DNA from: a virus
DNA: 21,045 nucleotides
Direction: 5' to 3' (one strand)
Virus record (IMG/VR): IMGVR_UViG_3300020469_000311
Coordinates: 1 to 21,045 of that record
The notes beneath the pieces were generated by a model. That model made no database searches and had not been told where the DNA came from. It saw only the letters and a program-made list of their open reading frames with translations. Position 1 is the stretch's first letter. Every line of letters starts with the position of its first letter. Positions 3,425-19,309 of this stretch are shown here, in pieces. The translations under genes and the position numbers were made by a program.

Positions 3425-3841
3425 TTAGTCCTGTAGTAGTTTAGGAAAGGCCTCCTCTACAACTGGTTTGGAAATTCCGGGGATTTTTTTCTTATTAATC
3501 ATGTTAATGACAAGCTTAGCATCTTCAGGATGTACACCTTCAAGTATGCCTATGAATATTTGTTCTCTTTTAAACTTTGGTAGAGCGTCACCTTGTCCAC
3601 CTTTTACAAAATATTTAAATTGTGCATTTTGTTTTGTTAAGTTAGTGGGGTGACTATGTGCTGCTGCTGCAGTATATGGAGGATCACCTTCAGGTAAGTT
3701 CCACTTAATAGTAGAATCCATCGATCCCCTTATTATATCTTTTAAAGCCCATGTCTCATTCTCTTTTAAGACACGAACTTTATCATTACGATTTCTTTGT
3801 TTAGCCATTTCTTCAAGGACTTCAAAAACATATTGTTTCAT
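3425..3841 (-). CDS. Conserved phage protein, DUF6433-like
   Basis: This 138-aa protein contains the segment TIKWNLPEGDPPYT, a following QFKYFVKGGQG region, KREQIFIGILEG and a C-terminal EEAFPKLL. I associate this pattern with DUF6433, a family seen in T4-like marine phages. The biochemical role is not known to me. It starts at ATG 3841, which shares its A with the TAA of the RNase H gene (TAATG), so the two should be translationally coupled. Its position beside RNase H suggests a part in replication or in the switch to late expression, but this is guilt by association. The family name itself is from memory. Confidence 0.6.
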   Translation of the reverse strand: MKQYVFEVLEEMAKQRNRNDKVRVLKENETWALKDIIRGSMDSTIKWNLPEGDPPYTAAAAHSHPTNLTKQNAQFKYFVKGGQGDALPKFKREQIFIGILEGVHPEDAKLVINMINKKKIPGISKPVVEEAFPKLLQD

Positions 3842-4695
3842 TAAATAAACTCCTGTACACTTTCAATTAGATTATTACAACGCTTGGCGACTAAGTAAGG
3901 AAATACTTTACCTTTCTTTGACCAAGGATCCTGTTCCTCATAAGTATTTATAATTTGTGTTTTAAGATCAGATGGTGTTTCACTTAAGTCGATTAATTTT
4001 TTATTACGGCAGTAGTTCCTATACCAAGAGGCTGCATATAATAGCTCACCTTCGTTAACATCCTCTATTATGGCATCAACTTTCTTTTGTGTCATAGGAG
4101 TTTGCCTAAAGCCTTCAACAAATACATTATCATCAGACAATATATTAGGTACTCCATCACCTTTATCACCACGTATGATATGATTTTCTAAGAATAACCT
4201 TGCATTAGGCTCGATCATTTCTTCTTTCTTTAAAGGTGAGAATTGTTTTACGTTGGAATACTTTTGTAACTGTAAGAAATCACGATCAGAAGATACTATC
4301 ATGATTTTTTCAGGATTAAACTCGACTTTAGATTTCATTTTTACTAATGTGCCAATGACGTCATCAGCCTCACAGCCATCGATCTTTATAACCTTATATG
4401 GCATATTTTCGAGTATTTCTTCCCTTACTAAGTTTAATATCCTAAAGGCTTCATTCCAATCAAAAGATGATTCTTCTCTGTGTTTTTTACGATTAGCCTT
4501 GTATTGAGGAAATGCTTTCCTGCGCCAGTTATTGGCAGCATCCACAGCAAGAACCATGTCACCGTATTCTTCTTTATATCTTGTACGATACATACGTAGA
4601 GAATTAAGAATCATATGACGAATCATATCCTCGTCATTTGTTTTATTAATAATAATACTAGCCAGTGCAATACCACTGTAGTCAACAATAATCAT
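3841..4695 (-). CDS. rnh: RNase H / 5'-3' exonuclease, FEN family
   Basis: This is a homologue of T4 RNase H, which removes RNA primers and flaps from lagging-strand DNA. It has 284 aa, against 305 in T4. The acidic metal ligands are in place: D5 (IIVDYSG), D52 (LAVDAANNWRRKAF), E109/D111/D112 (CEADDVIGTL), D137/D139 (SSDRDFLQL) and D177/D180 (GDKGDGVPN). The basic YKANRKKHR segment after D52 matches the flap/arch region. GDKGDGVPN is the helix-hairpin-helix region that holds duplex DNA. It starts at an ATG overlapping the previous stop by 4 nt (ATGA). With gp43, gp41 and the primase it forms the lagging-strand machinery. Confidence 0.9.
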   Translation of the reverse strand: MIIVDYSGIALASIIINKTNDEDMIRHMILNSLRMYRTRYKEEYGDMVLAVDAANNWRRKAFPQYKANRKKHREESSFDWNEAFRILNLVREEILENMPYKVIKIDGCEADDVIGTLVKMKSKVEFNPEKIMIVSSDRDFLQLQKYSNVKQFSPLKKEEMIEPNARLFLENHIIRGDKGDGVPNILSDDNVFVEGFRQTPMTQKKVDAIIEDVNEGELLYAASWYRNYCRNKKLIDLSETPSDLKTQIINTYEEQDPWSKKGKVFPYLVAKRCNNLIESVQEFI

Positions 4696-5235: not shown

Positions 5236-5406
5236 CTTTTTTTCATCTTTTTTTGTTTTTTGCCTTAAAGACCACAATATCCAGTCATAATATCTTTCTG
5301 GTTCAGGATCATCATCTAGTTCAGGAAATAATTCAAGCTGTTCAGGCTCATTTGGTAAGGTTATATGATCACCGGTTCCTGTCATATCTTGAGTATACTT
5401 ATTCAC
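5227..5406 (-). CDS. Small acidic protein (59 aa), GTG start
   Basis: This short gene directly follows thyX. It starts at GTG 5406 with GGAG 6 nt upstream (AGGAGACATATGTG), and the start overlaps the thyX TAA by 8 nt. The product begins MNKYTQDMTGTGDHITLPNE. It has an acidic middle (ELFPELDDDPEPE) and a basic aromatic tail (YYDWILWSLRQKTKKDEKK). The charge split resembles small phage proteins that bind a host or replication protein, but no family was recognised. An alternative ATG at about 5385 lacks a good binding site. The stop lies inside the palindrome in front of promoter P2. Confidence 0.6.
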   Translation of the reverse strand: MNKYTQDMTGTGDHITLPNEPEQLELFPELDDDPEPERYYDWILWSLRQKTKKDEKKFN

Positions 5407-6097
5407 ATATGTCTCCTATCATTGGGAATATTTTTGATATCGCCTCAGAACATGCCTTAGCAACTTCCATGCATTCTTTTTGTGTACCATTACTTGAACG
5501 TAGTTCTATAAAGTGAATCCAACTTCTTATTGTTCCATTCATGTACAGCCTGGATGATGTTAAACCTTCAGGTAATACTTTACGTGCAAGTTCTTTAGCG
5601 ATACCGTTATCAATTGCAAACTGATAAGCTTTCTTTGCAGCAATTACCACTTCACTCTGTGCCTTCATCCACTCAAGTGATAATGTAGCTCTCTCATCGC
5701 TATCACTAATTTCAATGCTATTTTGTCTATTCTTATCGTCTTGTAATCTGCATTCTGTAGTTACTCTAATATCTAATTCTTTAAGAGGATCTGCGTATCT
5801 TTGACTAAATTCTTGAAAGCTAAAACTTCGATGTCTTAGTATCTGTCTTGCGATATCTCTTGTAGTATTAATCTCGATACACGCGCTTGCCATCTCAAAT
5901 GGTGACCAGTGCTGATGCTTAATTAAATAGTTTAATAACTTAGCATTAGTAGCATTACTAGATTGTCCTGATGGATTAGAAACTCTTGCACAGTATGCTA
6001 TAAGATCTTCACATCCTTTTGGTGGATCAATATAATCATCATAAGTTTTAAATTCAGATGGTTTACTATAAGATATTAATTTTGCTGACATATCCAT
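5399..6097 (-). CDS. thyX: Flavin-dependent thymidylate synthase ThyX
   Basis: This enzyme makes dTMP from dUMP using FAD, NADPH and methylene-tetrahydrofolate. The signature RHRxxSxxxxSxR is intact at residues 88-100 (RHRSFSFQEFSQR). The 232-aa length is normal for the family. SPFEMASACIEI before it and ARKVLPEGLTSS plus the NGTIRSWIHFIELR segment further on match ThyX blocks. T4 itself uses a ThyA-type enzyme (td). Here the only ThyA-fold protein is the dCMP hydroxymethylase at 15199, so ThyX is the sole visible source of dTMP. The dCMP deaminase at 14769 would supply its dUMP. The gene is coupled to the upstream exported protein by TAATG. Confidence 0.93.
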   Translation of the reverse strand: MDMSAKLISYSKPSEFKTYDDYIDPPKGCEDLIAYCARVSNPSGQSSNATNAKLLNYLIKHQHWSPFEMASACIEINTTRDIARQILRHRSFSFQEFSQRYADPLKELDIRVTTECRLQDDKNRQNSIEISDSDERATLSLEWMKAQSEVVIAAKKAYQFAIDNGIAKELARKVLPEGLTSSRLYMNGTIRSWIHFIELRSSNGTQKECMEVAKACSEAISKIFPMIGDICE

Positions 6098-6456
6098 TAA
6101 GTTTTATCTCCTAACATTGTCCAGTCATCGCCATATCCAATGATACATATGCTGTCATATGATGGATGAAATTCTAGTATGCTGAAAGTTTTTGTTTTTA
6201 AGTTAACAAATATTTGTAGTGGTACATGCGCTGGTATGTCACTTAGTCCATCAGTGTCACGAACTTTAGTACTCTGTATTGCAGTAATGAAAGGAATCTC
6301 GCCTTTAGCCTTTACTGCTTGAAGTACTATTTCTTTTTTCTCACACATCACAGGTTTATCATTCCATTCACCTGCTTCTGCATTTTTAAATATTCCTAGT
6401 CCAAAAATAAACAAATAAGCTGCTACTAATATTCCTAAAATAAAAATTAATCTCAT
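6097..6456 (-). CDS. Exported or membrane-anchored hypothetical protein
   Basis: This 119-aa protein has an N-terminal hydrophobic segment (about residues 3-22) followed by KNAEAGEW, which could be a signal peptidase site (AEA-G). The remainder would be periplasmic, about 90 residues, with cysteines in VMCEKKEI and SICIIGYG. It has strand-rich stretches (LQIFVNLKTKTFSILEF). It is linked by ATGA to the helicase gene upstream and by TAATG to thyX downstream. An envelope protein is therefore co-expressed with replication genes. No family was recognised. A role in envelope modification or superinfection exclusion is possible but unproven. Confidence 0.65.
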   Translation of the reverse strand: MRLIFILGILVAAYLFIFGLGIFKNAEAGEWNDKPVMCEKKEIVLQAVKAKGEIPFITAIQSTKVRDTDGLSDIPAHVPLQIFVNLKTKTFSILEFHPSYDSICIIGYGDDWTMLGDKT

Positions 6457-7820
6457 AATTTAAAATCCTTAAATCTTTGACCTGTCGGTGTTTTATCAAA
6501 TACCGGTGTGTCATCTGTTAAAGTTTGCTGTGTTTCTTCTACATCATATAATCTCATTTTGCTACGATCAACACCTATTACAAATCTTTTATGTTGTGTA
6601 GGATCATTATACCTGTTCTTTAATTGCTTAACCATAAACTGCCCTTGTTGCTCAAGCTCTTCAGTAGATATTAATGCAAACATTAAGTCCGCGGTTGCGG
6701 GTAATCCAAAAGATTCACTTGTATCTTCCAGCCCAACATCCGAGTTAGAATAACCAGAACGAGTCGTTTGCGTTGCAGAGAAGATCGGTACGTTAAACTC
6801 GACCGCAAGGCCACGTAGCTCTTCAGCAATTGCCTTAATGTAAGAGTAAGAGTTAATTGCACCGCCCATTCCTTTCATTCTAGAACTTGCACATATATTT
6901 AAATAATCAATAAAGATTAAGTCTGGTTCAAATTGTCTTTTCAATTTAAGTTCATTAAGTAATGCTCTAAAATGACCAGAATGTGCAGAGCCAGTTGGAT
7001 ATTCTTTTATAATAAGTTTACCAGTTGTCTTACGTGCTATGTCTGAAACTTTGGTAGTAAACATGTCTTTCGATAACTTATCGAGCTGATCAATAGGAAC
7101 ATTAAGTAAGTTGGCATCAATACGCTCAGCTATACGTTCCTCGGCCATCTCCATAGTAATATATAAGACATTATGACCTTGCACTAGAGACGATGCTGCC
7201 ACATGACACATAAACAGAGACTTACCGACACCAGTGCCAGCGAGAGCAATGTTAAGTGTTTTACGTGGAACTCCACCTTTAGTGATTGTATTAAAGTATT
7301 CCAAATCAAATGGTAGCCTATCTTCTTCTGTATGATAAAAGTCATATCTTTCTTCAACATTTTCTGTGTAATCATGACCAACCTTTAAATCAAATCCAAC
7401 ACCAAGAGCTTTACTTAATAAGTCAGGTAATGCACCTTTTGTCAGCTCTTCGTGTTTCCCATCAATTATTGATATTGATTCCATAATTGCATTATATATC
7501 GCTCTGTCCTGACACCACTTTTCAGTTGTATCAAGAAGCCACTGGTTATCTACTTTATCATTAGTAAATAACTGTGGAACTATATCCATTGCCAGATTAT
7601 ACTGCTCATCACTTAACTTTTCTGACTGATCGAGTTCAATCTTAAATGACTCAGCATTTGGCAACTTATTATACTTAGCAACAAACTTACCTGCCTCACG
7701 AAATAATATCCTGTATATACCAGCAAAGTAGTCAGGTTTTATAAACGGTAAAACCTTGCGCATATATTCTTCATCAGTAAGAAGATTTCGTAGTATAGTT
7801 TGTTCTAAATTAGTAGGCAT
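6453..7820 (-). CDS. 41: Replicative DNA helicase, gp41/DnaB-like
   Basis: This is the hexameric 5'-3' helicase that opens the replication fork and works with the primase. It has 455 aa, against 475 in T4. The helical N-terminal domain covers about residues 1-150. It is followed by the RecA-fold motor with Walker A G195-TGVGK-S201, the TMEMAEERIAERID block (motif H1a region), Walker B in LIFIDYLNIC, the TQTTRSGY segment (H3) and the C-terminal GVDRSKMR block. The last is typical of the arginine-finger/H4 region. The start overlaps the previous gene by 11 nt. It lies downstream of uvsX as in T4. Confidence 0.93.
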   Translation of the reverse strand: MPTNLEQTILRNLLTDEEYMRKVLPFIKPDYFAGIYRILFREAGKFVAKYNKLPNAESFKIELDQSEKLSDEQYNLAMDIVPQLFTNDKVDNQWLLDTTEKWCQDRAIYNAIMESISIIDGKHEELTKGALPDLLSKALGVGFDLKVGHDYTENVEERYDFYHTEEDRLPFDLEYFNTITKGGVPRKTLNIALAGTGVGKSLFMCHVAASSLVQGHNVLYITMEMAEERIAERIDANLLNVPIDQLDKLSKDMFTTKVSDIARKTTGKLIIKEYPTGSAHSGHFRALLNELKLKRQFEPDLIFIDYLNICASSRMKGMGGAINSYSYIKAIAEELRGLAVEFNVPIFSATQTTRSGYSNSDVGLEDTSESFGLPATADLMFALISTEELEQQGQFMVKQLKNRYNDPTQHKRFVIGVDRSKMRLYDVEETQQTLTDDTPVFDKTPTGQRFKDFKL

Positions 7821-7992
7821 AGGCAGCTTTTCTCAGGTCCTCATCGATTTGTTTTTGTACATCATCAACTCTACTTTCTAAGTAGCTTATCGAAGTATGT
7901 ATGTGGCCAGTGTCTTCTGGCCTTAGTTTACTCTTTGCAATGGAGATTTCATCCATTAATAATATAAGTCTTTGACTAGTTGTTATTTGCAT
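7810..7992 (-). CDS. Small helical conserved protein (60 aa)
   Basis: This 60-aa protein lies between the uvsX-linked gene and gp41. It begins MQITTSQRLILLMDEISIAK and contains LRPEDTGHIHTSISYLESRV, which looks like a conserved small phage family with a PEDTGHIHT turn between two helices. GAGG lies 5 nt before the ATG. It overlaps neighbours by 17 nt upstream and 11 nt downstream. It occupies the area where T4 carries gene 40, but no sequence similarity to gp40 is claimed. A helix-pair adaptor for helicase or recombinase would fit the position, as inference only. Confidence 0.65.
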   Translation of the reverse strand: MQITTSQRLILLMDEISIAKSKLRPEDTGHIHTSISYLESRVDDVQKQIDEDLRKAAYAY

Positions 7993-8284
7993 TTTTTACC
8001 TCTTTTGTTACAACGCTTCCTTCTTCAATACCTCGAGCCATAATCTTTTCTAACATCTCTCCTGCAAAATCTTGCAGTCTTGTGTCACTTATTTTAAGCT
8101 CAGTATCTGGTGTGTACACTATTTTAAAATCAAATGACATATTCTTTGGCACCTCATTAAATTTTACAGTACCGTATTTAAGAACAGTTTCAGTATATGG
8201 ACCTCTTAGTACCCTAACATTCCAAGCCTGCTCATCAGCTTTATCTGGAATAATTTGATAATCAATGTTCTCCCTCAACACCAT
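7976..8284 (-). CDS. Conserved hypothetical protein after uvsX
   Basis: This 102-aa protein of unknown function contains the conserved-looking VLRGPYTETVLKYGTVKFNE, a KNMSFDFKIVYTPD strand pair and a C-terminal helix (QDFAGEMLEKIM). I associate this pattern with small proteins next to uvsX in T4-like marine phages, without a known role. Its ATG shares a base with the uvsX stop (TAATG), implying strict co-translation with the recombinase. No signal peptide or membrane segment is present. Confidence 0.65.
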   Translation of the reverse strand: MVLRENIDYQIIPDKADEQAWNVRVLRGPYTETVLKYGTVKFNEVPKNMSFDFKIVYTPDTELKISDTRLQDFAGEMLEKIMARGIEEGSVVTKEVKNANNN

Positions 8285-9327
8285 TAGTTTTCATCCACCT
8301 TGGCAAGGTTTACTTGATTATTTAATATTGAATACTTATTAGTTAAGTACTGCTTAAAGTCAGTATCTTCAATGATTGGTTTCCAAAAGCCTTCACTTAA
8401 CGTTTCTTTTTCTCTTACTTTAGGTTCCATTAACTCACCAGTGGTCTTATCTACTCTGCAGTACCAACCATTTGAAGGCTTGGCCACATAGTTACCAGTA
8501 AGTGCAACATCGAGTAAACCTGACCATTCCTGAACACCACCATCCCAGCTGACTGAGATAGGAATTTTTGATTTTTCTTTAACAAACCTAGATTTTTCTA
8601 CATTGATTACAAAGTGATAACCTTTAATTTCCGTACCAACTTTATCTTGTTGGCGGCCAAGAATCCAGATATTATCTGCACTATAGTAGATACCAGTACC
8701 ACCAGAGACTACAGCTTTTGGAAATAAACCAATCTCTTGATAAGTATGATTAACTGCAAGTAAAGGTATATCTTTCATATTTAAATATGGTGTAACCATT
8801 CTAAATAAACCTTTTAAAGCCTTTGCCCTTGACATATCAGCAACTGATTTCTCATTAATTGCATCATCTAATTCTTTCTTAGAGGCAAGGTTACCTATTG
8901 AATCAATTACGATTACAACTTTATCATTTCTGTCCAGGCCTTCAAGCTGACTTATCATATCAAACTTGAGCTCTTCAACGTTTGTAATTGGAGTATGCAG
9001 TACTCTGTTTGTATCAATACCAAAGTTTTCAAAGTATGCCTGTGGTGAGCCGAACTCTGAATCATAAAATAGTAACACAGAATCTTTGTATTTCTTTAAG
9101 TATGCACTTGCCATAATAAGAGCAAATGATGTCTTAAAGTGTTTAGATGGACCTGCCAGTACAGTAAGTCCTGGTGTTAAACCACCATCCATTGAGCCGG
9201 ATAAAGCTACATTGATCATAGGTACATTAGTTGGTACCAGATCCTTATCATTAAAAAATTTAGAATCAGCCAGAATTGATGTATAATCAACCTTCGTATT
9301 CTTTTTCAATTTGTCCATTATTGACAT
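8284..9327 (-). CDS. uvsX: UvsX RecA-like recombinase
   Basis: This is the strand-exchange recombinase of T4-type phages, acting in recombination-dependent replication and repair. It has 347 aa, against about 390 in T4. The Walker A loop has the UvsX-specific form GPSKHFKT (59-66). The Walker B strand is VVIVIDSIGNL. LAVNHTYQEIG and VVSGGTGIYYSADNIWILGR correspond to the L1/L2 DNA-binding region. AGGAG lies 6 nt before the ATG at 9327. It follows the sugar/DNA-modification block and precedes gp41, the order seen in T4. No clear uvsY gene was seen nearby. Confidence 0.93.
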   Translation of the reverse strand: MSIMDKLKKNTKVDYTSILADSKFFNDKDLVPTNVPMINVALSGSMDGGLTPGLTVLAGPSKHFKTSFALIMASAYLKKYKDSVLLFYDSEFGSPQAYFENFGIDTNRVLHTPITNVEELKFDMISQLEGLDRNDKVVIVIDSIGNLASKKELDDAINEKSVADMSRAKALKGLFRMVTPYLNMKDIPLLAVNHTYQEIGLFPKAVVSGGTGIYYSADNIWILGRQQDKVGTEIKGYHFVINVEKSRFVKEKSKIPISVSWDGGVQEWSGLLDVALTGNYVAKPSNGWYCRVDKTTGELMEPKVREKETLSEGFWKPIIEDTDFKQYLTNKYSILNNQVNLAKVDEN

Positions 9328-10119: not shown

Positions 10120-10148
10120 ATTATACCATAAATTGGTCCAATTGTAAA
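10120..10148 (-). promoter_or_regulatory. Sigma70-type promoter P5 inside the methylase 3' end
   Basis: TTTACA (10143-10148), a 17-bp spacer and a consensus TATAAT (10120-10125) lie within the last codons of the C5-methylase-like gene. They face the epimerase, whose start is 25 nt beyond the -10. This would let epimerase and uvsX be expressed apart from the upstream sugar block. Confidence 0.75.
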
Positions 10149-11323
10149 GGACTTTTCTCATAAAAATTTTCTTGTGATTTGTTATCTTGTACTATAAAGT
10201 TAGTATCAACTAACTGATTATCTAAAAAGCCTTGTACAAACTTTAACACCTGTCCTGCCATGTCACTTGCCGTTGTAACTGGTACATTTTGACATATATG
10301 ATTTAAGTTCTTACGTCCGCCTTGTAGTGTAAAGTCATCAGGTAATCCCATAATAGTTAAGCACTCTCTTATCGTAAGATACCTATCTAAGTCAGGATGT
10401 GTAAGCTCAAAAGGTAGATGACCTACAAAGGCTCCTATAATATTTTTAGGTATAGTTACACACCTACGCATAATATTATTACCTTGAGCAAGTTTACTAT
10501 ACATTGTCATAGCTCTATCAGCTTCTTTTTCAAAGCCTTTACTGTTTAACCAGCCTGCAACTTCATTGTATTTTACATTATTATTTTCAATATAATCCAT
10601 AGGATTTACTGTCTTTGTAATTGAGTTTTGAAATTGTTTATGTGTCATTCCACCACACATTTCTTCAAGAACAAATCTATAAAATGGATTCTCTGATGGA
10701 GTCTTATTATTAGTTAATACTGACATAGGATCATTAGGCACGTTCTTTGCAGATCTTATAGTATCTTCTATCTTTTTATGTTTTCTAAAGAAGAAGTCGA
10801 GCTTAGGTACCTTATCTCCTTTCCAGAAAAAATAAAATGACCTATCACGTACTTGACTTAGTCCATGAAGGAGAGACTTTGTTTTATAAAGCGAGAAAGT
10901 GTAACCATACTTTTTTCCAATTTGTCTGAGATTTTCAACGATTGGCTCTCCCATCTTTGAAGCAAGTCTCGGTGCGTTTTCACCCCAGAATACTCGAGGT
11001 TTGACAGTACCCAAGACGTAATTAGCAGAGGTAGACATCCAATCGTTAGCAGCAGCATCAGAAGATGCTGAAGTATTGAGACTAGACAGGCCAGCGCAAG
11101 GGCAAACAGTATTGACAACATCGACGCTAGAAATATTATGTGTCCTATCGTTGTCCAAAAGATAGTAGGGAACTTCTCCTTTATAGTACTCAACCAGGTG
11201 AGTATCGTTTGGTGTAAAATCAGCATAACTTAAAATATACTCCGGTTTCTTTTGAAAGACATTTTGCATAGCTATTGTCTCTCCACCAATTAGTGGAACT
11301 ATGCTTGCGTATGTGTGTTGCAT
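10121..11323 (-). CDS. C5-cytosine DNA methyltransferase-like protein
   Basis: This 400-aa protein has the motif order of C5 cytosine methylases. Motif I is degenerate (ASIVPLIGGETIAM, residues 6-19). Motif IV is CPCAGLS (74-80, nucleophile C76). Motif VI is ENA (115-117), motif VIII is QVRDR (157-161), motif IX-like is RYLTIRECLTIMGLP, and motif X-like is NVPVTTASDMAG. The usual PCQ is PCA, a variant I recall from marine phage homologues. It would methylate C5 of cytosine in DNA. In this phage, cytosine is probably replaced by hydroxymethylcytosine, whose C5 is blocked. The target may therefore be host DNA or residual cytosine, or the chemistry may have changed. It starts at a TAATG junction with the fusion gene, and its 3' end contains promoter P5. 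Confidence 0.75.
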   Translation of the reverse strand: MQHTYASIVPLIGGETIAMQNVFQKKPEYILSYADFTPNDTHLVEYYKGEVPYYLLDNDRTHNISSVDVVNTVCPCAGLSSLNTSASSDAAANDWMSTSANYVLGTVKPRVFWGENAPRLASKMGEPIVENLRQIGKKYGYTFSLYKTKSLLHGLSQVRDRSFYFFWKGDKVPKLDFFFRKHKKIEDTIRSAKNVPNDPMSVLTNNKTPSENPFYRFVLEEMCGGMTHKQFQNSITKTVNPMDYIENNNVKYNEVAGWLNSKGFEKEADRAMTMYSKLAQGNNIMRRCVTIPKNIIGAFVGHLPFELTHPDLDRYLTIRECLTIMGLPDDFTLQGGRKNLNHICQNVPVTTASDMAGQVLKFVQGFLDNQLVDTNFIVQDNKSQENFYEKSPLQLDQFMV

Positions 11324-14790: not shown

Positions 14791-15227
14791 CTTATACCTA
14801 CTTCTCCAAACATTGACTGTGAGGCAGTTGTTGACACCTTCCAATTTTCTGGTACACTTTGATACGGTGTTACTATTCTTTTAATGCCGGCTTGGATTAA
14901 ACCCTTAGCGCATTCACTACAAACAGGTAAACCATAAACATAAACTGTGGAATCTTTTAATGATACGCCATTTTCCGCAGCATTATAGATAACATTCATT
15001 TCAGCGTGAACCATAAATTTATATTTTTCTGTACGATTATCAAGCCTAGTGGTAGTGTCATTAATACCACGTGGAAAACCATTATAACCTTGAGCAATAA
15101 CAGTTCTATTTCTTACAGCAATAGATCCAACCTGTGTTGACGGATCTTTTGACCAAGTTGAAACAAACTTAGCCATTTGCATAAATCTTTTATCCCACTT
15201 ACTTGACAAGATCAAAGTGCCTTTCAT
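14769..15227 (-). CDS. cd: dCMP deaminase
   Basis: This enzyme converts dCMP to dUMP, feeding ThyX and draining the unmodified cytosine nucleotide pool. The zinc site is complete: H74-A-E76 (VHAEMN) and C103-xx-C106 (LPVCSECAKG). SSKWDKRFMQMAKFVSTWSK and DPSTQVGS at the N-terminus are typical of phage and bacterial dCMP deaminases. The start is uncertain: ATG 15227 gives 152 aa. TTG 15209 (giving MSSKWDKRF) has AAAGG 10 nt upstream, fits family length better and leaves an 11-nt overlap with gp42. It follows the hydroxymethylase gene, so both dCMP-using enzymes are made together. Confidence 0.9.
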   Translation of the reverse strand: MKGTLILSSKWDKRFMQMAKFVSTWSKDPSTQVGSIAVRNRTVIAQGYNGFPRGINDTTTRLDNRTEKYKFMVHAEMNVIYNAAENGVSLKDSTVYVYGLPVCSECAKGLIQAGIKRIVTPYQSVPENWKVSTTASQSMFGEVGIRWDWLNF

Positions 15228-15876
15228 AAACATGCAAGTTTTGTACTTGCCAAGTGATATCACCACATGAAATTGGTTCTATACTCTCATTCTTACATTG
15301 ATTATAATCTTCAACTAATACTTCTAGAACATAAAGCTGCCAAGCATAGTCATTTTTGTATCCGAACACGACATCGTTTGAGCGCATTTGTACGACACAG
15401 TGTAGTTTATCATCACGTATGTAATAAGTAACGGCATTAGTACATATGAAATCGCTCTTACCATTTTCATTATATTCCTCCCATATACTTGGACGATTGT
15501 AAATCATTGATGCTCTACGACCATCAGGATTTTCTAATAACTCATCAAGAACTCTACCATATTGATAATAATACTTATCAGAGTAAATTATTTGACCATA
15601 GTTTGAGTTAACTTCACCCCAGTCATTTGCTGCCAGCTTCCATGCAACAGGTACTTTACCTGAAATTGCGTTAACATTAGCAACCTGACTCCTATACCAA
15701 TTTAATTCTCTGTCAATGTAATCTTGATTAGGCTCACCAAATATTGAAGGTTCATCTGCCAGAAATGATGCACCAATCCACTCAATAGTTTTTTGTCCGG
15801 TTTTATCGATAGTGAATACTTCATTAAGAAGCTTTGACTTAAATAGATTTCTTACATTTTCAATCTTATTAATCAT
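15199..15876 (-). CDS. 42: dCMP hydroxymethylase (gp42)
   Basis: This ThyA-fold enzyme adds a hydroxymethyl group to C5 of dCMP using methylene-tetrahydrofolate, the first step to hydroxymethylcytosine DNA. FTIDKTGQKTIEWIGASFLA, ADEPSIFG and YIDRELNWYRS closely follow T4 gp42 as I recall it. The catalytic Cys is C145 (DFICTN). D176 in FGYKNDYAWQ replaces the Asn of thymidylate synthases, the change that favours cytosine over uracil. The C-to-D distance of 31 residues equals T4 (C148/D179). The protein has 225 aa against 246 in T4, ending at HVYERHFDLVK, so about 20 C-terminal residues are missing. ATG 15876 has AAGG 5 nt upstream. In T4 this gene also lies between 43 and beta-gt. Confidence 0.93.
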   Translation of the reverse strand: MINKIENVRNLFKSKLLNEVFTIDKTGQKTIEWIGASFLADEPSIFGEPNQDYIDRELNWYRSQVANVNAISGKVPVAWKLAANDWGEVNSNYGQIIYSDKYYYQYGRVLDELLENPDGRRASMIYNRPSIWEEYNENGKSDFICTNAVTYYIRDDKLHCVVQMRSNDVVFGYKNDYAWQLYVLEVLVEDYNQCKNESIEPISCGDITWQVQNLHVYERHFDLVK

Positions 15877-16165
15877 CTTGACCTTCCATCTTTCCACGCA
15901 TATATGATACCGCAAAAGAGCAGTAATTAATCATATCTTTATAAGTATCTTCGAGTGATTCAAACTTTGGATCACCTTCAGCTTCAAGTAAAGACTGTGC
16001 ACGTAATAGTTTTTGGTGTATCATATCATGAATAGTGTCAACACCTCTACGATAGTGCATAGCCTGCTTTATATTTGAGTTAGGATTTTGATAATCTTGT
16101 GACTTTTTTAACTGTAACTCAATACATTCATTAAGAACGTTTACTGATTCTTTAGACTTTGACAA
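15869..16165 (-). CDS. Nmad1/DUF1599-like protein
   Basis: This all-alpha protein is about 98 aa. The pattern KKSQDYQNPNS, then GVDTIHDMIHQKLLRAQSLL, then ESLEDTYKDMINYCSFAV resembles DUF1599, called nucleotide modification associated domain 1. That domain is found near phage base-modification genes. The conserved acidic and Lys/Arg residues could form a nucleotide site. The neighbour downstream is the dCMP hydroxymethylase, which fits. The start is uncertain: TTG 16165 has GGAG 6 nt upstream, while ATGs at 16171 and 16177 are in frame but poorly spaced. The gene overlaps its neighbours by 14 nt and 8 nt. The family assignment is from memory of the motif. Confidence 0.55.
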   Translation of the reverse strand: MSKSKESVNVLNECIELQLKKSQDYQNPNSNIKQAMHYRRGVDTIHDMIHQKLLRAQSLLEAEGDPKFESLEDTYKDMINYCSFAVSYMRGKMEGQDD

Positions 16166-17543: not shown

Positions 17544-17563
17544 GTTGTTAACTTGTTAATTAA
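17544..17563. repeat. AT-rich dyad element upstream of P4
   Basis: The dyad TTAAC-TT-GTTAA (17548-17559) is the second copy of the block at 16988-17007, 19 of 20 bases equal. It overlaps the stop codon of the gene ending at 17556 and lies 11 nt upstream of the P4 -35. Confidence 0.45.
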
Positions 17564-18008
17564 TTTCATCTCTATTGAATTTTTTTCCATTCCATACATA
17601 TATGCCTTCATGTACATATTCTTTAGATTTCTTATCATTAGTAAAAACATAAACAATATCAGGATAATTTCTCCAAGTTTCAAGCTTGGCTTCTTTACAT
17701 CTGTCGAGTACATAAGAAATATTACCAGCATGTTCTGTAACTTTAATTTCCACATTATCACCTAAGGGATCTATTAAATCTTTATACTTTCGCAAATCGT
17801 CTTCCCATCCAGTTTCAATAAGATATTGCTCAGCAGCATGTCCATATAAACACACCTCTAATATTTGGTCATATGTTCTACCACGAGCAGTAGATGCTTT
17901 GCTATGAATTTGCTTTGCCTCAAGTTCAGATCTTTCAAGCCATTCACTTTTTTCTTGTATATCATCAATACTGAATGACATGTCCATGTTAAATATTTCT
18001 GTAGACAT
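17556..18008 (-). CDS. Putative PD-(D/E)XK nuclease
   Basis: This protein is about 150 aa from ATG 18008 (MSTEIFNMDMSFSIDDIQEK). The helix ARGRTYDQILEVCLYGHAAE with E60 is followed by YKDLIDP (D77/D80) and VEIKVTE (E87-I-K89), the ordinary layout of a PD-(D/E)XK active site (E...D...ExK). The C-terminal half (NYPDIVYVFTND, YVHEGIYVWNGKKF) would complete the core sheet. Small phage endonucleases of this type cut DNA in repair or host-genome breakdown. The start is uncertain, since ATGs at 17987 and 17981 are also possible and none has a clear binding site. It overlaps the PrimPol-like gene by 20 nt or less. Promoter P4 follows directly after its stop. Confidence 0.5.
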   Translation of the reverse strand: MSTEIFNMDMSFSIDDIQEKSEWLERSELEAKQIHSKASTARGRTYDQILEVCLYGHAAEQYLIETGWEDDLRKYKDLIDPLGDNVEIKVTEHAGNISYVLDRCKEAKLETWRNYPDIVYVFTNDKKSKEYVHEGIYVWNGKKFNRDEIN

Positions 18009-18918
18009 ATTCGAGTGCACGGTTAGCCTCCTTCTCCATTGGACGGTTCTTATACCAATTACCAGTTTCTGTATCAAGTTCGCGACATAACACAGTAATC
18101 TCATCAGGCGTAATTGGATATTTATTTTTTAGGGCATTGCCTGCAGTTGCCACCATAATCTGGTACATCTTATGATACCAGCCTGTCTTACTAATCATAC
18201 GGTATTCTTTCTCAAGTTGCTTAGGAAAGAATGGACAATTTGAATATGAACTCCAATTCACATTCGTATTATCTAATTTAGATTTTCTATGCTCAAGTAT
18301 TTCTCTTTGCATATCTTCAGGTAACCTATCAAAGAAGTTATTACTGCTAGACTTTTCACGGTAAGGGTACTTGTTCATTAGGCTATCAGCGTCAATAAGA
18401 TCACCATCTCCACTAAAAATAAAATTGTAAGCATCATCATATTTTGCTGGTATATAATACATGCGAGATAAGTCTTTGGTTTGCTTATCTCCCATATCTC
18501 CAAGTTCTGTCTGAAGAGCATACCAAAAGTGTCGAATCTTTTCAGCTGATACATTCTTTTTAAGTGGGAACACAAGACGGAACTTTGGATTAGATTGTGT
18601 GCTACTAGCAGTGCTGTAACAGACATACCTAGTACCATTAAACTTATTGCGAATAGCTTCATAAAAATCTCCATCATATTCAAAGTCATCGACATCAACA
18701 GCACACCAACCAGCCCATACCGTAACATTATCATTAGCGCGAGTTGTATTAGGTTTAAACTGCGCAGGTGTCATGAGCGGTGCATCTTTCTTTGATTTTA
18801 TTATACGAGATGATAGACCATACAATGCTTTTTCAAAGCTATCAAAGTTTTCAAATGTTAGTTTTTGATTAGTCTTATTATCAAATATACTAGTAAAAAG
18901 AGTCAGAGATATTTCCAT
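17989..18918 (-). CDS. PrimPol-like primase (archaeo-eukaryotic primase superfamily)
   Basis: This 309-aa protein has the signature of AEP/PrimPol catalytic domains. It has GWCAVDVDDFE (D75-x-D77, metal site), RYVCYSTASSTQSNPKFRLV (the loop and strand where AEPs place their nucleotide-binding residues), FPL, and KDLSRMYYIPAKYD. The C-terminal part (about 200-309) is helical, like the PriCT domains linked to such primases, with WYHKMYQIMVATAGNALKNK. It lies between gp43 and the modification genes. T4 uses a DnaG-type primase (gp61), not seen here, so this could be the primase working with gp41. AAGGAT lies 5 nt before the ATG. It could instead be a replication-associated protein with lost activity. 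Confidence 0.6.
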   Translation of the reverse strand: MEISLTLFTSIFDNKTNQKLTFENFDSFEKALYGLSSRIIKSKKDAPLMTPAQFKPNTTRANDNVTVWAGWCAVDVDDFEYDGDFYEAIRNKFNGTRYVCYSTASSTQSNPKFRLVFPLKKNVSAEKIRHFWYALQTELGDMGDKQTKDLSRMYYIPAKYDDAYNFIFSGDGDLIDADSLMNKYPYREKSSSNNFFDRLPEDMQREILEHRKSKLDNTNVNWSSYSNCPFFPKQLEKEYRMISKTGWYHKMYQIMVATAGNALKNKYPITPDEITVLCRELDTETGNWYKNRPMEKEANRALEYVYRNI

Positions 18919-19309
18919 GATTATCCTTATGTTCTGGACCTGTCCAACCTTTTGGCTTTACCAAATCCGGTAAGCCAAGTGGATTAGGTCTTCCTTCTTT
19001 TATGCCAACTTCTTTTGACATATTCGCTTTATATACTTCATCCCATGCTTTATTAGCATCAACACCAAATACTTCGAGTGTGCCAATTGCAAAGACGCAT
19101 AGGTCAATCATACCATCAACCATTTCTTCTGCATCTCTTTTATCAAAGGCAGCCTTTGTTTCATCAAGTTCTTCTTGCATCATGCCAATTCTAAACTTCA
19201 TATATTTTCTTAGGTGTACACCGTCAAATGTCTTTTCAGTGTCCATCCATTTGTCTACACCATATTTTTTATGCATGTCTTGCATGTCTTTAAACCAGTT
19301 TGTACTCAT
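18890..19309 (-). CDS. MazG-like nucleoside triphosphate pyrophosphohydrolase
   Basis: This 139-aa all-alpha NTP pyrophosphatase-like protein has two acidic motifs that bind magnesium: QEELDE (E46, E47, E50) and EEMVDGMIDL (E61, E62, D65, D69). These are followed by GTLEVFGVDANKAWDEVYKA and NMSKE. The tail GRPNPLGLPDLVKPKGW is typical of a phage subgroup. Relatives hydrolyse dNTPs to dNMPs plus pyrophosphate. In T4 the all-alpha dCTPase gp56 destroys dCTP so that only the hydroxymethyl form is used. This gene could fill that role or clear dUTP, but the substrate is not shown. It starts at an ATGA overlap with gp43. Confidence 0.75.
   Translation of the reverse strand: MSTNWFKDMQDMHKKYGVDKWMDTEKTFDGVHLRKYMKFRIGMMQEELDETKAAFDKRDAEEMVDGMIDLCVFAIGTLEVFGVDANKAWDEVYKANMSKEVGIKEGRPNPLGLPDLVKPKGWTGPEHKDNHGNISDSFY

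Follow-up and report, generated by a model that had tools for sequence, protein, structure and literature searches.

A stand-alone AEP-type primase and the absence of detectable gp61 and gp59 in a lineage of marine T4-type phages

The replication module and its primase gene

The window analysed here is the whole of an isolated, uncultivated virus record (21,045 bases), and the list of its open reading frames (ORFs) together with a PHROG profile search demonstrated that its minus strand carries part of a T4-type replication module. In minus-strand order, the C-terminal part of gp43 is followed by MazG, the AEP gene, a thymidylate synthase and a dCMP deaminase. Next come sugar and methyltransferase-like genes, UvsX and a small ORF, and after these gp41, a thyX-like gene and a 5'-3' exonuclease (Table 1); the sugar, methyltransferase and thyX labels were assigned by inspection of the sequence. 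The exonuclease is likely to function in primer removal. The joint presence of the ThyA-like and ThyX-like genes, the dCMP deaminase and the cytosine-methyltransferase-like ORF may point to a modified-base pathway.

Table 1. Features of the replication module in the window.
Feature	Position	Strand	Basis
Stand-alone AEP-type primase, 309 aa	17989..18918	-	ATG start; PHROG 9765; AlphaFold2 model; conservation
gp43-type family B DNA polymerase, truncated at the record end to its C-terminal 576 aa	19306..21036	-	PHROG 262, 3.1e-218
MazG-like nucleotide pyrophosphohydrolase, separating gp43 from the primase gene	18890..19309	-	PHROG 671, 4.2e-24
UvsX recombinase, T4/DLP6 type	8284..9327	-	PHROG 97, 2.3e-89
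Small conserved ORF between uvsX and gp41	7976..8284	-	tblastn, many AEP loci
gp41 DnaB-like replicative helicase	6453..7820	-	PHROG 19, 3.7e-132
5'-3' exonuclease, T4 RNase H type	3841..4695	-	PHROG 107, 1.3e-59
ThyA-like thymidylate synthase	15199..15915		PHROG 160
ThyX-like gene	5399..6097		by inspection
Cytosine-methyltransferase-like ORF	10121..11323		by inspection
ORF overlapping the end of the primase gene	17556..18104		PD-(D/E)XK nuclease-like by eye

AEPs are the primase class of archaea and eukaryotes and are unrelated to bacterial-type DnaG. The initial annotation had given the primase ORF exactly, and had placed it beside gp43 in a T4-type replisome. The neighbourhood holds with one gene, the MazG-like ORF, in between; of the replisome, the window contains gp41, UvsX and part of gp43, and the full set was found in the three longer genomes described below. 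It is clear that the ORF is a real gene, because relatives are encoded in 590 of the 599 matched IMG/VR stretches, among the matches listed, and because dN/dS was 0.10–0.17 in seven pairs of primase genes. The nuclease-like ORF at 17556–18104 found no match in the PHROG search, and a homologue of it comes after the primase in some AEP loci.

Predicted fold and active site of the primase

The protein matched PHROG 9765 'DNA primase' at 1.5e-42 and, more weakly, phage helicases and helicase-primases (1e-13); no similarity to PHROG 47 or to DNAG_N was seen in the PHROG and Pfam searches. A relationship to the BT4734-like family, which had been put forward for checking, was not borne out, the Pfam match to BT4734-like_N (PF08800) reaching only 14.3 bits against a cut-off of 22.4; a weak match of this kind was present in 5 of 41 members. 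The protein fits none of the named AEP families tested, and a sequence search of the PDB yielded nothing useful.

A model built with AlphaFold2 on an alignment of 41 sequences (mean pLDDT 87.9, pTM 0.62) comprises an AEP domain at approximately residues 1–185 and, in agreement with the helical C-terminus noticed earlier, a helical C-terminal domain at approximately residues 200–309. When the model was compared with the PDB by Foldseek, only two matches fell below 0.001, namely the RepB' primase and the AEP domain of S-2L PrimPol (E ~1e-4). In a VIA-align comparison with 997 PDB chains the S-2L PrimPol AEP domain ranked first (Z 9.3, 147 residues, rmsd 3.5 Å), followed by the CRISPR-associated Prim-Pol (Z 6.8), RepB', Prim-PolC, pox D5/E5, NrS-1 and the human and archaeal primases; most rows down to rank 25 are AEPs, with non-AEP rows of similar middling Z (HP0184, designed bundles) between them. 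The protein is predicted to adopt an AEP-like fold. The C-terminal 109 residues predicted alone gave a pLDDT of 93.6, and the domain matched the helix bundle of the pRN1 primase at only Z 4.3–4.5, a middling value, among designed bundles and helical proteins at Z 6–4. An uncharacterised protein of cyanophage S-TIM5 (UniProt H6WG13, 328 aa) is likewise a Foldseek match to the AEP model (3.7e-12), and S-TIM5 may be another marine cyanophage with a stand-alone AEP.

Among solved structures, the best fold match is the AEP domain of the cyanophage S-2L PrimPol (6zp9), with 12% identity and the acidic triad E85/D87/D146 (PMC8065100) corresponding to D75/D77/D144 of the window AEP. The S-2L enzyme is multidomain and, in the available part of its description, the sole possible polymerase of that phage, whereas the phage studied here has a separate gp43. 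The RSF1010 RepB' primase (3h20) resembles the window AEP in consisting of an AEP and a helical C-terminal domain with no fused helicase (PMC5862659, as far as that text was available), but identity is only ~10% and the whole chains superimpose poorly (rmsd 18–19 Å). Among the matches listed, the Kagunavirus helicase-primases represented by K1ind2 are detectably similar in sequence across the AEP core, motif II block included; there, however, the AEP forms the N-terminal part of a long helicase-primase that keeps the motif II histidine, whereas the window AEP stands alone. The AEP of Vibrio phage henriette 12B8 (VPDG_00043, annotated as DNA primase) likewise stands alone (308 aa) and is 28% identical to the window AEP over 85%, among the matches listed.

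Conservation was examined in 128 aligned proteins (those of the record, 125 IMG/VR loci, phage C48C1 and henriette), three of which are cut at 269–270 aa. Residues D75, D77, K112, R114, D144, D149 and R152 are identical in all of them. The DVDD site recognised earlier corresponds to D75-V-D77-D78, in which both D75 and D77 are invariant; the acids of motif I (hhhDhD; D75, D77) and of motif III (hD; D144, assigned via alignment with the K1ind2 and Emery primases) are thus present in 128/128, as is R152, which was assigned by its position after D144 as the 'Rh' arginine of motif IV in the PrimPol-PV1 supergroup. The expectation of an intact AEP active site was borne out for the metal-binding triad but not for motif II (sxH), where the histidine position, S106, is serine in 127 of the 128 and cysteine in henriette; the K1ind2 and Emery primases have histidine in the aligned column.

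The absent histidine counts against a primase, and it could be taken to mean that the protein has the AEP fold but no catalytic activity, and serves the replisome solely as a structural or DNA-binding part. According to the available text of Kazlauskas et al. (2018, PMC5862659), however, whether an AEP has the motif II histidine depends on its family; glutamine, tyrosine, arginine and lysine are the alternatives named in that text, serine not being among them. RepB'-like and PolpTN2-like enzymes have glutamine there (RepB' thus differing from the serine of the window AEP), PolpTN2 is active, and the motif IV arginine, like which R152 is placed, is essential in PolpTN2 (PMC5862659). With D75, D77, D144 and R152 invariant in 128/128, a dead enzyme appears extremely improbable. 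A further point against primase function is that, in the part of the S-2L study available (PMC8065100), S-2L PrimPol is reported to show no primase activity in standard assays.

Distribution of AEP, gp61 and gp59

The initial annotation had also pointed out that no gp61 lies near gp41 in the window. This is true, but as an argument it is weak, since in P-HM1, Melnitz and HTVC008M gp61 lies ~10–15 kb from gp41, immediately before nrdA, and a fragment of 21 kb alone cannot show gp61 loss. Longer AEP genomes were therefore examined: phage C48C1 (156,191 bases), whose AEP is 49% identical to that of the window among the matches listed, and the IMG/VR contigs G014 (152,719 bases) and G015 (135,206 bases); C48C1 alone is stated to be circular and complete, G014 and G015 carrying no statement of completeness. 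The replisome of these three genomes is otherwise complete, with gp43, gp44, gp62, gp45, gp32 and gp41, and they also hold gp46/47, UvsX, UvsY, UvsW, gp33 and gp55.

PHROG 47, the gp61 profile, matched 11 of 11 gp61 control phages (T4, P-HM1, Melnitz, S-SRM01, S-CREM1, S-SCSM1, Bellamy, P-SSM7, HTVC008M, DLP6 and ACP17) and had no match in C48C1, G014, G015 or another 23 contigs that carry the AEP, the search covering 25 of the 125 IMG/VR AEP records. Pfam DNAG_N matched T4, P-HM1 and Melnitz and 0/7 AEP records. With leave-one-out gp61 profiles every control was recovered when held out, none at worse than 6.8e-74, and the best result among the 4,055 ORFs of the three long genomes was only 0.12. 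Furthermore, three gp61s used as tblastn queries had no match in the stretches fetched for 126 AEP loci (C48C1 included). The search for a gp61 or TOPRIM primase elsewhere in the genome, as the initial annotation had suggested, was thus negative in C48C1, G014 and G015, and the swap of primase class that it proposed is supported: no gp61 homologue was found in these genomes, and the metal-binding residues of the AEP family are retained. Toprim_2 (PF13155) was dropped as a gp61 test because it misses even T4, P-HM1 and Melnitz. In the DLP6 record (KU682439), a second, partial gp61-like match (3.7e-10) was seen at 96641–97006 besides the full gp61.

Conversely, the AEP was absent from 11/11 gp61 phages by an AEP profile (and for three of them also by PHROG 9765), for which henriette was the positive control, T4, P-HM1, Melnitz, DLP6 and ACP17 being run separately with no positive genome among them. 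No gp61 was found in henriette with PHROG 47 and DNAG_N. The presence of the AEP and the absence of gp61 are therefore reciprocal, without exception, between four AEP genomes (C48C1, G014, G015 and henriette) and eleven gp61 genomes.

The change proved wider than initially proposed, the loader gp59 being undetectable as well. The gp59 family (PF08993) was matched in all five gp61 phages searched for it (T4, P-HM1, Melnitz, HTVC008M and DLP6), and weakly in henriette, and was not detected in C48C1, G014 and G015. With leave-one-out gp59 profiles, the held-out proteins of T4, P-HM1 and DLP6 scored 9.9e-31 or better, and henriette's distant gp59 scored 2.9e-29 or better; in the 4,055 ORFs of the three long genomes the best values were 0.07–0.08 (top 0.071), from frames of 46–50 aa. 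Of the three specific primosome proteins of T4, given as gp41, gp61 and gp59 in the available part of PMC3012046, two (gp61 and gp59) are undetectable in these genomes and gp41 remains.

The swap might be only apparent if gp61 and gp59 were present in the AEP genomes and too diverged to detect, and gp59 is indeed poorly conserved in general (Pfam E 1e-11 to 1e-13 outside T4). However, the values for held-out gp61 and gp59 (6.8e-74, and 9.9e-31 or better) stand against 0.12 and 0.071 in the AEP genomes. In addition, gp41 and UvsX of the long AEP contigs are 69–79% identical to those of C48C1, so that these two genes do not evolve fast in the lineage. Undetected divergence is highly unlikely as the explanation; loss of gp59 as well, together with replacement of gp61 by the AEP, explains the data best.

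Henriette resembles C48C1 in having gp44/62, gp45, UvsY (by annotation), gp41 and an AEP of the same family, and differs in keeping gp59, in its motif II cysteine and in the setting of the gene, which adjoins a helicase gene (SF1-like by eye) instead of lying between gp43 and uvsX. The pairing of AEP and gp41 is thus found in at least two T4-related replisomes, with gp59 (henriette) and without it (C48C1, G014, G015).

Gene order, lineage and a proposed primosome

Gene order was compared in 126 AEP loci (125 from IMG/VR and that of C48C1); the IMG/VR loci are metagenome fragments, some near-identical, and the counts of loci are not counts of events. gp43 lies upstream of the AEP on the same strand in 115 of the 126, the other 11 having no gp43 match in the stretch, and MazG lies between the two in 107. 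Where found, UvsX (48/48) and gp41 (35/35) are always downstream of the AEP. There seems to be a large group of marine T4-like viruses without gp61 and with an unrelated AEP near the polymerase gene.

The gp41 of the window is 69% identical to that of C48C1, among the matches listed. In an unrooted tree of 33 gp41 rows, all 22 AEP rows fall on one side of a branch (support 95/98) that recurred in 96% of the 200 bootstrap trees; long branches lead to T4, ACP17 and DLP6, the latter two having been labelled as gp61 phages in the tree before PHROG 47 confirmed it. Since gp61 is present in T4, DLP6, ACP17 and the group of cyanophages, pelagiphage and Melnitz, the simplest reading of these sequences is that gp61 was lost in the AEP lineage. 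The window UvsX is 51–59% identical to those of T4, DLP6 and ACP17, and only 28–32% to the RecA-like proteins in the same place in the cyanophages, pelagiphage HTVC008M and Melnitz; the AEP clade therefore lies outside the group with RecA-like UvsX. A block transfer of the AEP with a foreign UvsX had been suspected, the UvsX of C48C1 being only 33% like that of P-HM1, and was ruled out, since the AEP clade has UvsX of the T4/DLP6/ACP17 type and the cyanophage/pelagiphage/Melnitz group is the odd one. T4-type marine phages thus split into two recombinase types, T4/DLP6-type and RecA-like.

Only eight gp41 columns separate the 22 AEP rows from 8 gp61 rows, from which it appears that the helicase was hardly rebuilt. 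These columns give no clear sign of co-adaptation to a new partner, which counts against a replacement of gp61 by the AEP, as does the distance of ~10 kb between the primase gene and gp41 in the record, the two not being adjacent. The nearly unchanged gp41 could still bind a DnaG-type partner, and host DnaG, recruited to the phage helicase, might prime the lagging strand, with the AEP confined to an accessory role in repriming, gap filling or repair; many AEPs are known to serve repair or damage tolerance. Such a role is nevertheless unlikely in view of the reciprocal distribution of AEP and gp61 (4 against 11 genomes, no exception), the upstream gp43 in 115/126 loci and the strong selection on the AEP (dN/dS 0.10–0.17).

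It is quite probable that this marine T4-type lineage lost the TOPRIM/DnaG-type gp61 and that the stand-alone AEP serves as its replicative primase. This reading draws on sequences and a predicted structure: the predicted fold is AEP-like, the acidic triad never varies, the partners are of the T4 type, and AEP and gp61 occur reciprocally. Encoded between gp43 and uvsX-gp41, the AEP would most likely make the Okazaki primers of the lagging strand at the gp41 fork, working next to an almost unchanged gp41, and the primers would be extended by gp43 with gp45, gp44/62 and gp32. A pair of metal ions is presumably bound by D75, D77 and D144, the usual task of the motif II histidine in holding the nucleotide may have passed to R152 and the invariant K112/R114, and the helical C-terminal domain may start the primer in the manner of the PriCT or helix-bundle domains of plasmid primases. 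Compared with the T4 primosome of gp41, gp61 and gp59, gp41 and the whole replicase set are kept, whereas gp61, a DnaG/TOPRIM-type protein of another fold whose activity is described as gp41-dependent in the available part of PMC3012046, and gp59 are undetectable in C48C1, G014 and G015.

A more far-reaching version, possible but rather doubtful, is that after the loss of gp61 and gp59 the AEP, with its helical C-terminal domain, also brings gp41 onto DNA covered by gp32 and initiates the primers, possibly from deoxynucleotides. Lagging-strand synthesis would then proceed without a DnaG-type primase or a dedicated loader, and henriette, with AEP, gp41 and gp59 and without gp61, would represent an intermediate state.

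Related arrangements are on record: phages with an AEP beside a DnaB-type helicase are known, 0305phi8-36 being an example (PMC2147016), AEPs fused to an AAA+ ATPase occur in one subgroup of a jumbo phage survey (PMC7824862), and a paper on Far-T4 phages mentions primases, the class not being given in the available text (PMC4360716). In the literature searched, which did not extend to a 2016 NAR survey of viral replication proteins, neither an AEP-for-gp61 swap in a T4-type phage nor a joint absence of gp59 with an AEP in a T4-type replisome was found reported. Database records already call the AEPs of C48C1 and henriette 'DNA primase'.

The findings suggest that even a core part of a textbook replication machine can be exchanged. 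The division between DnaG-class and AEP-class primases is that between bacterial replication on the one hand and archaeal and eukaryotic replication on the other, and a phage lineage that made the trade would for that reason be a useful model. With an unrelated primase, an almost unchanged gp41 and no detectable gp59, the clade is a natural experiment on three questions: which surfaces of the helicase are specific to the primase, whether an AEP that is a separate protein is accepted by a hexameric helicase of the DnaB type, and why a loader is needed.

Melnitz ORF 13, annotated as 'DNA primase' beside gp41, was considered as a further primase and rejected, having no PHROG primase match. It is weakly similar (E 0.003) to the small ORF between uvsX and gp41 of the window, which recurs in that place in AEP loci and in C48C1 and is a candidate partner of gp41.
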